Assembly: GCA_017434825.1 (NCBI GenBank)
Contig: JAFSGC010000002.1
Location: 1 to 64,000, forward strand
Direction of reading: 5' to 3'
Source of the DNA: Bacilli bacterium
GTDB lineage: Bacteria; Bacillota_I; Bacilli_A; RF39; UBA660
DNA length: 64,000 bases
Shown: positions 14,619 to 44,983 of the stretch, piece after piece
Layout: the number at the start of each line of letters is the position of its first letter
How positions within the stretch are numbered: position 1 is the first letter of the stretch
Notes under the pieces: model-generated
Database searches by the model: none
Told to the model about the DNA's origin: nothing
What the model saw: only the letters and a program-made list of their open reading frames with translations
Translations under genes and position numbers: made by a program

Positions 14619-15316
14619 TTTGCTGTTGAAAATTTAAGTTCAATATTCGGAAAAGTTGCTTCAAACTTCCCATCAGGAAAAGGTCCCTCATAGTTAATTA
14701 TAACAGCAAACAATTCATCACTATTAACCGGAATTTTATAAATACTATCAGTTATTGTTTTACCATCACCTGTTTCTTTATCAATGATTGTAAATAATAA
14801 ATTTAATCCATTACAAGCAGCGTCTACTAAAGTCTCAGTAGCACCTTCATCTCCAACACAAGTTGGTTTATACATACCACTAACAACCGAATCATCAATA
14901 AATTCAGATAAATCAATATAAGCATCATACTTACCTTCATTTCTTATAACAAATGGATATGCAACCTCACTAGTTTGATTACCAAACAATCCTTTAACAC
15001 CAGAAATAGTATGATTCTTATTATCAATAACAGCTGTTTCCGCCGAAATATTATCACCGTTTATCGATGCTACACCAATAGTATCACTTAAATATCTTTC
15101 ATCAAAAACATAACCACTTTCACCAAAATCATTTAATGAATCATTATCTTTTACACCATAAATTTTTATCTTAAAATCCTCTTCATTAGGAGTAACTGTT
15201 GCACTTGATGAAACATTTAAATTTACAGAAAATGCAGCAAATCCTAAAGACATAGCAATTACACCAATAGCAAGAACAATAATAGTTAAAATTTTTGTAC
15301 GTTGTGATTTTTCCAT
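14615..15316 (-). CDS. Exported protein with SipW-type-like signal, paralogue A
   Basis: A 233-residue protein with a basic start and a hydrophobic segment (about residues 10-31) that runs into GFAAFSVNLNVSSSATVTPN. The G-x-A-A-F plus short linker followed by a beta-domain recalls SipW-dependent substrates such as TasA (GGTWAAFND). The remaining 190 residues look like a beta-sandwich with two Cys about 19 residues apart (in PTCVGDEG and DAACNGLN), which could form a disulfide. It is a paralogue of the next gene upstream (15341-16003), sharing the identical VSSSATVTPNEEDFK. Function unknown; a surface or matrix subunit is a guess. No SipW-like peptidase is in the window. Confidence 0.7.
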   Translation of the reverse strand: MEKSQRTKILTIIVLAIGVIAMSLGFAAFSVNLNVSSSATVTPNEEDFKIKIYGVKDNDSLNDFGESGYVFDERYLSDTIGVASINGDNISAETAVIDNKNHTISGVKGLFGNQTSEVAYPFVIRNEGKYDAYIDLSEFIDDSVVSGMYKPTCVGDEGATETLVDAACNGLNLLFTIIDKETGDGKTITDSIYKIPVNSDELFAVIINYEGPFPDGKFEATFPNIELKFSTAK

Positions 15317-15340
15317 TTAATCAACACTCTCCTTTTTATA

Positions 15341-16003
15341 TTAATTAGCACTACTATAAGTTAATTCAATATCACCAAATTGGACATTAAATGCACCATC
15401 TGCTCTATCCGAACCTTCCGGATAAATAATATTTACCTTTCCAGAAGAAACATATCCTTTTTTTAGTTTAATTTCATCAAAAGACATACTATCCTTAAAA
15501 TTAATAAATTGAGAACCCTGTTTTAAGTCCATAGACAATTCAATATCTTCACATGCTTTATTTACAAGTTCTAAAGATGCATCACCTTCTTCTACCACAT
15601 TACAAATTTTCTTACTATCTGAATCAACAACATTTTTAAAAGTTAACGTATTTAAAAATGCATCATATTGACCAACATTATGTAAATAAAATAAATACGT
15701 AACACTTTGACCAGGCTCAGTAAAATTAACATTAATACTAGTTGAAGAACTGTTTTTTGAATTATTAATTGTAATATCATCAGCAGTAGCATCACCAACT
15801 ATCTCAGGATTTACGATATTAACATTCGGATCAATATTACTTCCAGAAACTAATAACTTAAAATCTTCTTCATTAGGTGTTACAGTTGCACTAGAAGAAA
15901 CCCTTAAATTAGCAGAAAAAGCCGCAAAAGCTAATGTTGTACCAAGTAACAATATTGATAATCCTAAAATAAATAAACTTTTACTTCTTCTATCTTTTTC
16001 CAT
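15341..16003 (-). CDS. Exported protein with SipW-type-like signal, paralogue B
   Basis: A 220-residue protein with the same architecture as its downstream neighbour: MEKDRRSKS start, hydrophobic segment to about residue 28, then AFAAFSANLRVSSSATVTPN and a beta-rich domain. The Cys pair is conserved (SKKICNVVEE and NKACEDIE). Overall similarity outside the signal region is modest, so the duplication is old or the two copies are diverging under selection. RBS AGGAA precedes the ATG. The two genes lie 25 bases apart and are presumably co-transcribed, ending at the shared terminator near 14606. Confidence 0.7.
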   Translation of the reverse strand: MEKDRRSKSLFILGLSILLLGTTLAFAAFSANLRVSSSATVTPNEEDFKLLVSGSNIDPNVNIVNPEIVGDATADDITINNSKNSSSTSINVNFTEPGQSVTYLFYLHNVGQYDAFLNTLTFKNVVDSDSKKICNVVEEGDASLELVNKACEDIELSMDLKQGSQFINFKDSMSFDEIKLKKGYVSSGKVNIIYPEGSDRADGAFNVQFGDIELTYSSAN

Positions 16004-16021
16004 ATAATCATTCCTTTCAAT

Positions 16022-16054
16022 AAAAAAAATTCTAACAGGAATAACTGTTAGAAT
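16022..16054 (-). terminator. Second of two tandem terminators after the flippase operon
   Basis: ATTCTAACAG (16029-16038) and CTGTTAGAAT (16045-16054) form a perfect ten-base stem, followed on the minus strand by U8. Confidence 0.85.
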
Positions 16055-16058
16055 ATGT

Positions 16059-16089
16059 CAAAAAAAAAGAAATGATTAAACATTTCTTT
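16059..16089 (-). terminator. First of two tandem terminators after the flippase operon
   Basis: AAAGAAATG (16066-16074) and CATTTCTTT (16081-16089) form a nine-base stem, with a U-run on the minus strand. It touches the stop codon of the 39-residue gene. Confidence 0.82.
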
Positions 16090-21900: not shown

Positions 21901-22111
21901 AAAAAAACTATTCATCCACATAAGGACGAATAGTTCGCGGTACCACCTTAATTCATAGTTAAACTATGCAACTTTAATAGATATAAAGGTCTTACCCTAC
22001 ATATTAATAAACTAGTCAAGTTCATAACCTCTTAATACTTATTTTCACCAGACATAAGCTCTCTAAAATTAAGAATAATTACTACTACTACCAGCAACAT
22101 CTCAAAAATAT
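21901..22111 (-). ncRNA. T-box riboswitch upstream of the leuS operon (Leu specificity)
   Basis: The minus strand contains AAGGTGGTACCGCG (complement of 21935-21948), the antiterminator core that pairs with the tRNA acceptor end. Stem I features AGAGAG and GGTGAAAATAAG are present. The specifier loop reads GAACTTGAC; CUU, or TUG aligned as in the Tyr T-box of this window (UUG), both read Leu. The terminator is CTATTCGTCC/GGATGAATAG with a U7 run at 21901-21907. Uncharged tRNA-Leu should turn on the small membrane protein and leuS. Confidence 0.94.
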
Positions 22112-22160: not shown

Positions 22161-23378
22161 TTAATTAAATAATTTTTTTCTATAAATTAGACATCCACCA
22201 ATACCTAATATCATAATAATAGCACTAATAATATAAGTTACTGCACTATCACCAGTTTTTGGATTTTCAATTTTCTTTAATTGATTAAATGCTTTAGTTA
22301 CCGCATCAATCATTTTATTAACATCTGCTTGTTTACTCTTTCCAAGTTCCCAATCAACCTTTTCAAGTTCTTTTTCTAAAGCAGTAATACTTTCTTTAGT
22401 ATAAGTATCTACTCCTTCATCAATTACCTTTTCAATAATTTCATCTATCTTACTATAATCAGCATAAACAAAATTAACTGAATAAGTACCATCTTCATTT
22501 TTAACACTTTCTGAATCAGCATTCATATAAGTAGAAACATCTTGATTAAAGTCACCATTTATAACTTCAATCTTACCTTCCCCCTCAGTAGATAAAATCT
22601 CTTTACCAGAAACTGCAATAAATGTTCCTCCATTAATTTGAACATTTCCTGCAGCTTTCAATACACCAGTTGCTCCTTCAGAAAAAGTCCCACCATTAAT
22701 TACAGTATTATCTCCAGGATCACTAGTAACAGATCTTTTTCCACCAACAAATGTTCCACCATTAATAACTAGGTTAGTTTTAACACTTTCATCATATGAA
22801 TATTCCAAATTATTAGAACTATTTGATATATCCCAGCCAGATGCAATTAAAGATGAGCCTTTAGTAGCATCACCACTATTTAAATTAACACCTTCATTAA
22901 CTGTAACTGTTCCTAAATTTTTAATAATATATCCACTATTACCAGTAGTTTTACCATTTTTACTTCTAGTATATGTTCCGCCATTTAAAATCAATGTTGC
23001 ACCAGGGTGATTACCTATTACAGGAGCTGACCAGTCACCATTATTTGCTTTATTAACTACAGTACCAGAACCATTAATAGTTAATTTACCCATATTTTCA
23101 ATTACAAGTACATCTGTCCAATCACTTGTTGATATTGTATAACCATTTAAATTTAATATAATTTCAGCATCTTTAGCAATTTTTATGTAAGTTGCAGCGC
23201 TCTTAGTAATGTTAACTTCTCCTTTTCCAGAAAAAACAACATAAGTAGCTCCTTTAACTTCTTCTGATTCAGTAATGCCAGAAGAAACAGTCCAATTTTT
23301 CTCTGCAGCATTAACATTACAACTAATTCCCAAAAATAGAACTAACACTAATATTATTTTAAACACACTTTTCTTCAT
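22161..23378 (-). CDS. Sortase-anchored surface protein with beta-helix-like and FIVAR-like domains
   Basis: A 405-residue surface protein. It has a signal peptide with likely cleavage after NVNA (about residue 25). A region of short repeats rich in NGGT (LILNGGTYT, LVINGGTFVGG, TVINGGTFSEG, VQINGGTFIAV) from about residue 120 to 275 resembles a right-handed parallel beta-helix. A helical segment at about 310-365 (YTKESITALEKELEKVDWEL, VNKMIDAVTKAFNQLKKI) resembles a FIVAR-type domain. The C-terminus carries the sorting signal NPKTGD, a hydrophobic helix and RKKLFN, so it should be attached to the wall by a sortase. Its promoter contains a G10 tract, suggesting on/off or graded switching. Confidence 0.88.
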   Translation of the reverse strand: MKKSVFKIILVLVLFLGISCNVNAAEKNWTVSSGITESEEVKGATYVVFSGKGEVNITKSAATYIKIAKDAEIILNLNGYTISTSDWTDVLVIENMGKLTINGSGTVVNKANNGDWSAPVIGNHPGATLILNGGTYTRSKNGKTTGNSGYIIKNLGTVTVNEGVNLNSGDATKGSSLIASGWDISNSSNNLEYSYDESVKTNLVINGGTFVGGKRSVTSDPGDNTVINGGTFSEGATGVLKAAGNVQINGGTFIAVSGKEILSTEGEGKIEVINGDFNQDVSTYMNADSESVKNEDGTYSVNFVYADYSKIDEIIEKVIDEGVDTYTKESITALEKELEKVDWELGKSKQADVNKMIDAVTKAFNQLKKIENPKTGDSAVTYIISAIIMILGIGGCLIYRKKLFN

Positions 23379-23410
23379 AAAATTATCTCCTATCTTCCTA
23401 TTCTAATAAA

Positions 23411-23441
23411 ATTGTACCCCCCCCCCACATCATTTTGTCAA
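23411..23441 (-). promoter_or_regulatory. Promoter with a G10 homopolymer in the -35/-10 spacer (predicted phase-variable)
   Basis: On the minus strand TTGACA (complement of 23436-23441) and TACAAT (complement of 23411-23416) flank a 19-base spacer that contains ten consecutive Gs (complement of 23417-23426). Spacing would become optimal at 17 bases if two Gs were lost. The gene 30 bases downstream encodes a wall-anchored surface protein. Slipped-strand change of tract length is therefore predicted to change promoter strength. Confidence 0.8.
23417..23426 (-). repeat. Poly-G (G10) simple sequence repeat
   Basis: Ten consecutive C on the plus strand, the longest G/C homopolymer seen in this very AT-rich window. 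Its location inside a promoter spacer argues against chance. Confidence 0.95.
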
Positions 23442-23478: not shown

Positions 23479-23501
23479 AAAAAAAGAAGCCAAAGCTTCT
23501 T
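23479..23501 (-). terminator. Terminator of the 23500-24435 gene
   Basis: AAGAAGC (23484-23490) CAAA GCTTCTT (23495-23501) with a U7 run on the minus strand. Confidence 0.87.
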
Positions 23502-24435
23502 ATTTACTTCCTCCTGTATATGGAGTATCAAATGTACTACCTAACATCTCATCTCCAACAGACCAAGCTTCTTGAATAAGTTCACTCTCAGTATCAAATT
23601 TAACACTAGATACTTCAGTACTTAAAGTAATTTCATTCTTTCTAACATAATCTCTATATTTATCAACTAATGTTAATACTTCATCATAGAACTCAAACTC
23701 ACCTTCTCTAAAGAATTCACTTAAAGTTAAAAGTAAAGGTTCTAAATCACTCTCATTAATTTCTGTAATAGGATCATCACTATTAACATTATTATATATT
23801 TCTACCCCAAGTACTAGTGGATAAGTAATTCTAATATCATTTTCTCCATAAGCATATAAAGTACCCTCTGGATAATTTAATAAAATACCTTTTTGTTCAT
23901 CAGTAAATATATTATAAAAACTATCTTTTTTAGACATATCAAGTAATACACTACTTAATACTTTATCATCTACAAAAGTATTCTTTAAATAATTTACTAA
24001 AGCTGTATCTCTTAAGTCTTCACTCGCACGAAGAGAAACAAGTAACTCTAAAGCATCCCTTCCTCCTTCTTTAGCAAGATGAAGTAAAAAATCATAACTA
24101 TTAAATATAGAATAAGCAATTAAACTATAATCAAATATTGGAGTATTCTCTAATGAATCTAACCAATAATCAACATCTCCATTAGAAAAACATAATCCAA
24201 CAAACTCTCTAGTTAAATCAAAAAGATCATTTTTCTCTTTATCACTCATTCCCTTAGTAACAGATGCATCAAAAACATCATCCAAGTCACCATTAACAAA
24301 ATGATTAATCATTACATCATATAAAGATAAATCTTGATCAAACTCAATTTCATCAGTATATCTAAGAATAGTTTCTTGTTTTAACTTTTCTAATCTCTTA
24401 ATTCCTTCATCTATAATATCTTGTTTAGTCTTCAT
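23500..24435 (-). CDS. Hypothetical helical protein
   Basis: A 311-residue soluble, acidic, largely alpha-helical protein without signal peptide or membrane helix. It contains patterns such as YDVMINHFVNGDLDD, LFDLTREFVGLCFSNGD, LLHLAKEGGRDALELLVSL and LEPLLLTLSEFFREGEFEF that hint at helical repeats. No catalytic motif is recognised. It follows the GH31 glucosidase by 12 bases and shares its transcript, with a terminator just after its stop, so it could be an accessory protein of the same pathway, but nothing proves this. Confidence 0.7.
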   Translation of the reverse strand: MKTKQDIIDEGIKRLEKLKQETILRYTDEIEFDQDLSLYDVMINHFVNGDLDDVFDASVTKGMSDKEKNDLFDLTREFVGLCFSNGDVDYWLDSLENTPIFDYSLIAYSIFNSYDFLLHLAKEGGRDALELLVSLRASEDLRDTALVNYLKNTFVDDKVLSSVLLDMSKKDSFYNIFTDEQKGILLNYPEGTLYAYGENDIRITYPLVLGVEIYNNVNSDDPITEINESDLEPLLLTLSEFFREGEFEFYDEVLTLVDKYRDYVRKNEITLSTEVSSVKFDTESELIQEAWSVGDEMLGSTFDTPYTGGSK

Positions 24436-27014: not shown

Positions 27015-28067
27015 ATGAAAAAGAAAATAATTATTATATCGTCAATTATCTTACTAATTGCATTAATAACAACTTCAATTTACTTTATTTTTTATAATCC
27101 ATTTTTAGATATAAAACTTAAAGGTAAAAAGAAAATAACATTAGAAGTAAATACAGAATATAAAGAACCAGGAATTATTACTTCTGGTACTAAAAACAAA
27201 TATAAAGTAACAGGAAAAGTTAATACTAAAAAATTAGGAAGTTATATACTTACATACAAAATTAAATTATTAAAAACAGAAAAAGAAATTAAACGAGAAA
27301 TTATTATTGTCGATACTACAAAACCAGAAATAAAGTTAACTAAAGGTAATATTAGTATTTATCAAAATGAAACATTTAAAGACCCTGGGTATGAAGTAAC
27401 AGACAATTATGATGAGAACACTAAAGTTAAAGTTACCGGTAAAGTTGATACTAAAAAAGTTGGAGAATATAAACTAACTTATACTGCAACTGATTCAAGT
27501 AATAATCAAGCAACTGCTGAAAGAAAGATAACAGTAAAGAAAAAAGAAGTAAAAGCTACTACTTCTGGAATAACATATATTAATGGAATACTACTAGTTA
27601 ATAAAAAGTATTCTCTACCTAGCACATATAATCCAGGTGTTAATCAGACTGCACAAAGTGCTTTAAACAAATTACAAAGCGCTGCAAATAAAGCAGGCCA
27701 TAAAATGCCGCTAGTATCAGGATTTAGATCTTATTCAAGACAAAAAACAATATATAATAATTATGTTGCAATGGATGGTGTTGCTAAAGCAGATACCTAT
27801 TCTGCTCGTCCAGGTCATTCAGAACATCAGACAGGACTAGCATTTGATGTTGGAGCAATTGATGATAATTATGGAAATACTGCTGCAGGAAAATGGTTAG
27901 CAAATAACGCTCATAAATATGGATTCATAATTAGATATCCAAAAGGAAAAACAAATATAACTGGATATAAATACGAACCATGGCATATACGATATATTGG
28001 AATAAATCACGCAACTACAATTTACAATAAAAATATTACTCTAGAAGAATACCTAAATGTAGCATAA
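27015..28067 (+). CDS. VanY/DdcA-type D-Ala-D-Ala carboxypeptidase with two Ig-like domains
   Basis: A 350-residue membrane-anchored wall peptidase of the M15B family, which trims the terminal D-Ala from peptidoglycan stem peptides. An N-terminal membrane helix (about residues 5-27) precedes two immunoglobulin-like DUF5011-type repeats (YKEPGIITSGTKNKYKVTG and FKDPGYEVTDNYDENTKVKV) at about 40-175. The C-terminal peptidase carries the zinc and catalytic motifs GFRSYSRQ, PGHSEHQTGLAFDVG (S-x-H-x2-G-x-A-x-D) and YEPWHIRYIG (second zinc His). The Ig-like domains probably hold the enzyme at the wall. It converges on a second VanY gene of a different architecture. Confidence 0.93.
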   Translation: MKKKIIIISSIILLIALITTSIYFIFYNPFLDIKLKGKKKITLEVNTEYKEPGIITSGTKNKYKVTGKVNTKKLGSYILTYKIKLLKTEKEIKREIIIVDTTKPEIKLTKGNISIYQNETFKDPGYEVTDNYDENTKVKVTGKVDTKKVGEYKLTYTATDSSNNQATAERKITVKKKEVKATTSGITYINGILLVNKKYSLPSTYNPGVNQTAQSALNKLQSAANKAGHKMPLVSGFRSYSRQKTIYNNYVAMDGVAKADTYSARPGHSEHQTGLAFDVGAIDDNYGNTAAGKWLANNAHKYGFIIRYPKGKTNITGYKYEPWHIRYIGINHATTIYNKNITLEEYLNVA

Positions 28068-44441: not shown

Positions 44442-44983
44442 TTGTAATTGTATTAGTATTAATATCATATATTGTTATTTGTAACATTATTTATAATAAT
44501 TTTACAATTGAAAAAAATAAAATATCCACAAGTATAAATATACCAAATCCTAAAAAAGTAACTAAAATTATTCCAAAAGAAAATAGTATTGGTAAACTAA
44601 CAATAGATAAAATATCATTAAATAAAAAATTATATCCTATAAACTCAAAAGAAAATAATATAGAAAAAAATATAACTATTTTACCTGGTTCTATTGAACC
44701 TTCAAATGAAAATTCCATTATGTTTATTGCTGCCCATTCAGGGACAGGAAAAAAGGCATATTTTAAAGAACTACATAAAATGAAGAAAAATGATTCAATT
44801 ATATTAGAATATAAAAATATAAGGTATACCTATATAATTAAAAATATATGGGAAACAAAAAAATTAGGAACAATATCAGTTCCTAAAGAAAATATAAATC
44901 AACTAATCTTAACAACATGTAGTATGAAAGATAAAGAGAATCAACTTATAATTAATTCAGTATTAACAAAAAAAGAGTCATAG
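44426..44983 (+). CDS. Sortase dedicated to the thioester adhesin
   Basis: A 185-residue sortase, a membrane transpeptidase that joins surface proteins to the wall. One N-terminal membrane helix (about residues 4-23). The catalytic His lies in FIAAHSGTG (His104) and Cys in LILTTCSMKD (Cys165). At the place where most sortases have the catalytic Arg, eight residues after the Cys, this one reads ENQLIIN (Gln173). The domain is small and the class is uncertain; the wide spacing looks closest to class D or E-like enzymes. It overlaps the adhesin gene by 16 bases, so both are made together, which indicates a cognate pair. Confidence 0.85.
   Translation: MWKKIIVIVLVLISYIVICNIIYNNFTIEKNKISTSINIPNPKKVTKIIPKENSIGKLTIDKISLNKKLYPINSKENNIEKNITILPGSIEPSNENSIMFIAAHSGTGKKAYFKELHKMKKNDSIILEYKNIRYTYIIKNIWETKKLGTISVPKENINQLILTTCSMKDKENQLIINSVLTKKES

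Follow-up and report, generated by a model that had tools for sequence, protein, structure and literature searches.

A probably phase-variable poly-G promoter of a predicted wall-anchored protein in an uncultured member of the Bacilli, and promoters of the same design in related genomes

The 64,000-nucleotide window analyzed here (positions 1 to 64,000 of contig JAFSGC010000002.1 in assembly GCA_017434825.1, called G000 below) carries on its minus strand a promoter whose −35 and −10 hexamers are separated by a spacer containing ten consecutive Gs, upstream of a gene for a predicted wall-anchored surface protein. We believe this locus to be a phase-variable promoter switched by slippage in the G tract, with a probability of about 0.85. 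Two observations support such a promoter for a surface protein, as an earlier sequence-only reading of the locus had proposed: the tract is G10 here and G9 in a second strain, and similar promoters, with tracts of varying length, precede surface genes in related genomes. That reading saw only the one locus, and so the lineage-wide set could not be known from it. We consider it probable that in a large lineage of uncultured Bacilli-class bacteria with reduced genomes, probably commensals, phase variation is organized as a multi-locus, combinatorial regulon. In each genome as many as tens of unrelated surface genes would each be controlled by a separate, independently slipping poly-G promoter of fixed design (TTGACA, about 9 bp, then G8 to G16 abutting the −10, with a G always kept at −14), so that surface profiles would differ from cell to cell with neither recombinases nor a loss of mismatch repair being required.

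Read from the sequence, the minus strand runs TTGACA, AAATGATGT, G10, TACAAT, and then 32 bp to the ATG at 23378:

23484..23501, minus strand: intrinsic terminator of the upstream gene
23436..23441, minus strand: −35 hexamer TTGACA, a perfect consensus
23417..23435, minus strand: spacer of 19 bp, AAATGATGT plus G10 (18 bp in G351, the second strain)
23417..23426, minus strand: G10 tract, immediately next to the −10 (G9 at the syntenic G351 locus)
23411..23416, minus strand: −10 hexamer TACAAT
23387..23391, minus strand: ribosome-binding site AGGAG, read from the sequence and flagged as such
22161..23378, minus strand: 405-amino-acid secreted surface protein with an LPXTG-type anchor
22248..22265, minus strand: NPKTGD sorting motif

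These coordinates bear out the description of TTGACA and TACAAT lying 19 bases apart around ten uninterrupted Gs; the statement that a surface protein is encoded 30 bases downstream was also accurate, the ATG following the −10 by 32 bp and NPKTGD being present. Because the terminator of the upstream gene sits just before the promoter, the surface-gene unit stands alone and its promoter is insulated.

G makes up 13.8% of the window, where the G10 tract is the only G run of at least 7 and the next longest is 6. A first-order Markov model predicts 0.0009 runs of at least 10 Gs in the window, and the promoter pattern with G8 was matched three times, all within the one tract, versus a mean of 0.06 in shuffles; a chance origin of the tract was ruled out on these expectations. 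A phage origin was also ruled out, since the pattern occurs in only 10 stretches among 2.9 million viral contigs; a search of a phage collection with the locus gave no match.

A family-wide protein search returned one near-identical copy of the surface protein (91% amino acid identity), in G351. Contig C4 of that genome is collinear with the whole window, at 97.4 to 99.7% identity over 63.3 kb, which by sequence identity is a within-species distance. A tract length fixed across strains had been named beforehand as the result that would speak against phase variation; in this one pair, both members of which are assembly consensuses, it is G10 versus G9, while both hexamers and the non-G part of the spacer are unchanged. 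Across the 63 kb there are few other isolated indels, and A/T runs of at least 7 without substitutions kept their length in 75 of 78 cases.

The surface protein itself is 91.4% identical between the strains, and the other measured neighbors are 97 to 100% identical. The ratio of nonsynonymous to synonymous substitution rates (dN/dS) is 0.36 for the surface gene versus 0.02 to 0.17 for leuS and the glucosidase, patatin-like, MurJ-like, and 311-amino-acid protein genes; it is elevated in two further genes, one encoding a 131-amino-acid protein (0.47, from three changes only) and one VanY-like (0.25). In the surface gene dS is also raised, which points to some recombination. Separately, a stretch of about 0.7 kb is missing in G351, and mismatches and indels cluster in short patches (14627-15331, 15340-16060, 22586-22605, and 27176-27178, stretch and patches together) where the sequences are otherwise 99% identical. 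One patch lies within the surface gene; by their sequence pattern, the missing stretch and the patches look like recombination or mosaic replacement.

Scanning the 386 genomes of the family, from 150 genera, with the pattern TTGACA-N4-13-G8-N0-4-TANNNT, we found matches in 79 genomes and 46 genera. A reversed-pattern control gave no match in the 386 genomes, nor did a C-tract version of the same architecture: the tract invariably reads G on the non-template strand (79 genomes versus 0 with C). The pattern also occurs in other families of the class and, among the matches listed, in gut Clostridia, Lachnospiraceae, Saccharibacteria, Treponema, Streptobacillus, and Streptococcus. In some genomes the number of runs of nine or more Gs reaches 20 to 48 (G163, 48; G404, 36; G025, 22). 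A multi-locus simple-sequence-repeat phasome, as in Neisseria and Campylobacter, is marked by ten or more long repeat tracts at surface genes in a genome; these related genomes reach that number of tracts, whereas G351, with 6, and the probably mixed G000, with one, lie below it. We inspected 20 runs picked for missing the strict pattern: several were the same promoter with a slightly altered −35 or truncated by a contig end, and others were located elsewhere.

In an anatomy set of 134 sites, tracts are mostly G9 to G11 and abut the −10 in 115. The spacer is 19 bp long in 59 of these sites, 18 in 32, 20 in 19, and 17 in 12; it thus peaks at 19 bp, whereas for ordinary TTGACA/TATAAT-like promoters of this DNA the peak lies at 17 to 18 bp. 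The spacers of tract promoters are one to two bases longer (Fisher P = 4e-6, with a small comparison set that includes some chance matches). As the tract grows, the non-G part of the spacer shrinks (rho = −0.35), a correlation partly produced by the search pattern. Position −14 is a G in 263 of the 286 sites used for that analysis, and where the tract lies at least 3 bases from the −10, the gap is filled by TGN, the extended −10 motif, in 13 of 20. Tract length also varies among promoters of one genome that have identical cores (−35, non-G spacer, and −10): G9, G10, G11, G11, G13, and G14 in G020, G9 to G11 in G344, G8/G10 and G11/G13 in G126, and G13/G16 in G184. Comparing the 40 + 40 bp flanks of all tract loci gave 19 near-identical pairs, 6 of which differ in G length, a consistent but small set.

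The median distance from the −10 of a tract promoter to the start codon is 34 bp. An N-terminal hydrophobic segment is encoded by 94 of 126 first open reading frames (ORFs) downstream (75%) versus 82 of 279 other ORFs (29%; Fisher P = 1e-17), a background set that may include spurious ORFs. The downstream families include type IV pilus (T4P) prepilins, InlB-type repeats, PARCEL/DUF285, BspA-type leucine-rich repeats, SpaA folds, prealbumin-like folds, and a glycosyltransferase. On one contig (G327:C6:5000-28000; L263 and L264), seven tandem poly-G promoters, each G8 or G9, stand before related sortase-type genes, whose products start with MKNLKMFAI and end in a VPKTNDN-type anchor. Paired poly-G promoters before related secreted proteins also occur on short stretches from Streptobacillus notomytis (L134), a metagenome-assembled genome (MAG) of Lentisphaerae (L095), and gut MAGs (L159 and L173). 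These sources are either distant from the class of the window or belong to other gut lineages, and by these matches the poly-G promoter device is spread over several phyla.

Mechanistically, slipped-strand mispairing would add or remove Gs between the −35 and the −10, so that the hexamers would lie farther from or closer to each other; this would alter their recognition by RNA polymerase and the amount of wall-anchored protein. With the tract lying directly against the −10, position −14 would remain a G at every tract length and only the −35 would move; the site anatomy suggests that the non-template G is kept as the supplier of this −14 G. G10, with its 19-bp spacing, would most likely be a weaker state and G8 to G9 (17 to 18 bp) stronger ones, because both tp0126 of Treponema pallidum and the clade's own non-tract promoters favor 17 to 18 bp. 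In Neisseria meningitidis porA, by contrast, expression climbs as the tract lengthens from 9 to 11 Gs, and a G tract may shift the optimum. We infer slippage as the cause of the length differences, switching within populations, and an effect on transcription with its direction; the benefit could be evasion of antibodies or phages, or altered adhesion.

Loss of mismatch repair as a general driver was ruled out: MutS, the repair protein searched for, scored over the cut-off in 150 of 164 family genomes and was found in the tract-rich G163, G025, G035, G020, G126, and G150. Its presence in most of these genomes means that the device does not depend on lost mismatch repair.

The source of the contig affects how some of these counts are read. 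G000 is assigned to a different genus than G351. The tetranucleotide profile of the window matches other parts of G351 at 0.92 to 0.96 but does not fit the other G000 contigs (a 7-kb piece gives 0.48, and G351 pieces of equal size at least 0.83); the contamination reported for G000 is 5.8%. The window contig, C4 of G000, is probably misbinned, and facts from other G000 contigs (MutS, two further sortases, and the absence of a second run of nine or more Gs) may therefore not apply to the organism. The assembly's own genus yielded no close relative of the surface gene or its neighbor, which most likely reflects the misbinning. In the genus of G351, three sampled genomes have 4, 5, and 6 tract promoters; the same-species G351 holds 6 runs of nine or more Gs, as against one, the G10 tract, in the whole 1.07-Mb G000, which is probably mixed.

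Several observations weigh against a phase-variable promoter as the reading of this locus and its relatives. Some tracts precede genes without a surface role (an IclR-type regulator and an ABC ATPase), a few runs of nine or more Gs have no clear promoter, three A/T runs also differ in length between the two strains, and such sites are absent from other members of the assembly's genus, an absence that misbinning of the contig would explain. Moreover, there is a single strain pair, and a one-base homopolymer difference between consensus sequences could be an assembly or sequencing error. If so, the tract would be constant at this locus; homopolymers are error-prone, but the long tract is held independently by both strains amid few other isolated indels, and length variation recurs across many genomes. 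We consider an artefact very unlikely.

The tract could also be a fixed element of promoter strength, setting DNA geometry or supercoiling sensitivity in a long-spacer promoter and kept for regulation rather than for hypermutation. That the Gs abut the −10 and always lie on the non-template strand indicates that the sequence itself matters, and the clustering of tracts at G9 to G11 is also in keeping with this explanation. An element tuned in this way should keep its length, however, and length differs both between the two strains and among identical cores of one genome while the flanks are held; we give the fixed element little weight. Finally, that the tract varies neutrally, as a by-product of mutation that leaves transcription unchanged, seems hardly credible given the absolute strand bias, the position between the hexamers, the conserved −14 G or TGN, and the enrichment before surface genes; in porA and tp0126, changes in spacing shift output (PMC3639595, PMC7864442).

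A phase-variable poly-G promoter of this kind has known counterparts. In T. pallidum, transcription of tp0126, encoding an OmpW homologue, is reported to be optimal when the tract gives a 17-nucleotide spacing (PMC7864442). As here, the poly-G lies between the −35 and the −10 before a surface protein, but that protein is an outer membrane protein of a spirochete pathogen, whereas ours is a predicted wall-anchored protein of an uncultured member of a Bacilli-type class. Surface expression of N. meningitidis porA, which likewise has its poly-G between the hexamers, is high with 11 Gs, 2-fold lower with 10, and about 13-fold lower with 9 (PMC3639595); expression there increases with Gs over this range, whereas promoter spacing in the clade studied here suggests the reverse from G10. 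Our locus shares with porA and tp0126 a poly-G between the hexamers, a length difference between strains (one pair, consensus sequences), and a predicted surface-exposed product. The vlp genes of Mycoplasma hyorhinis form a multi-gene surface family with ON/OFF switching and a homopolymeric promoter tract for each gene (PMC10502178). Several surface genes, each with its own tract, are common to both systems, but vlp uses poly-A in related genes of a wall-less pathogen, while here unrelated surface genes share the device. The vmm gene of Mycoplasma mycoides is switched by indels in a repeat that lies within its promoter spacer (PMC10502178); the principle is similar, but the repeat is a dinucleotide and one locus has been described.

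The single locus thus belongs to a known type; what seems new is the scale and host of multi-locus use. Among open-licence PMC papers, we found none that describes such promoters in uncultured gut Bacilli, whether RF39-type or other. In a 2025 review, multi-locus phase-variable genomes seem to be confined to pathogens, a point that the review leaves open (PMC11868660). The bacterium studied here is uncultured and probably gut-dwelling, and the tract-bearing lineages are probably commensal; the device occurs in uncultured lineages distant from the classical pathogens, with long G tracts numbering up to about 48 in one genome, and whether multi-locus phase variation is limited to pathogens becomes directly testable with existing metagenome reads. 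The gene content of a MAG is thus a poor guide to the surface proteins being expressed, and in uncultured bacteria the poly-G promoter can serve as a simple sequence signature by which to look for phase-variable genes.

The 405-amino-acid protein is predicted from its sequence to be a wall-anchored surface protein. An N-terminal hydrophobic signal is followed by NGGTF-type repeats, a helical stalk, NPKTGD, a hydrophobic segment, and a basic tail; NCBIfam TIGR01167 (LPXTG_anchor) matches residues 373 to 402 with 17.0 bits (cut-off, 15.9). From its signal peptide to its basic tail, it thus has all four elements of an LPXTG-type sortase substrate. A Pfam search of the protein gave no match. The repeats suggest a beta-solenoid, for which the single-sequence AlphaFold model is too weak to tell: its predicted strands there are mostly short and of low confidence, and with a mean predicted local distance difference test score (pLDDT) of 53 it is too poor for a fold search. 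A candidate sortase is encoded on the same contig:

44597..44953, plus strand: sortase-family domain (PF04203, 53.5 bits, over the cut-off)

The two further sortases of G000 lie on other contigs.

Among the neighboring features, a T-box leader (RF00230, 96.6 bits; 21919-22101, minus strand) lies 3′ of the surface gene and precedes the 131-amino-acid protein gene and leuS. The 311-amino-acid protein (23500-24435, minus strand) has no Pfam match; nine other species in the genus of G000 lack it, but it is present in G351.

In one further locus (L320; G693:C98, minus strand, 643), a G10 run without promoter hexamers may sit inside an ORF near its start, so that translational (frameshift) phase variation is possible beside the promoter type. 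Contigs in several assemblies stop in or just past a poly-G promoter (L327, L325, L317, L219, and L220), as would be expected if assembly is interrupted by repeated stretches of promoter plus signal peptide; counts of surface genes in such MAGs are likely too low.
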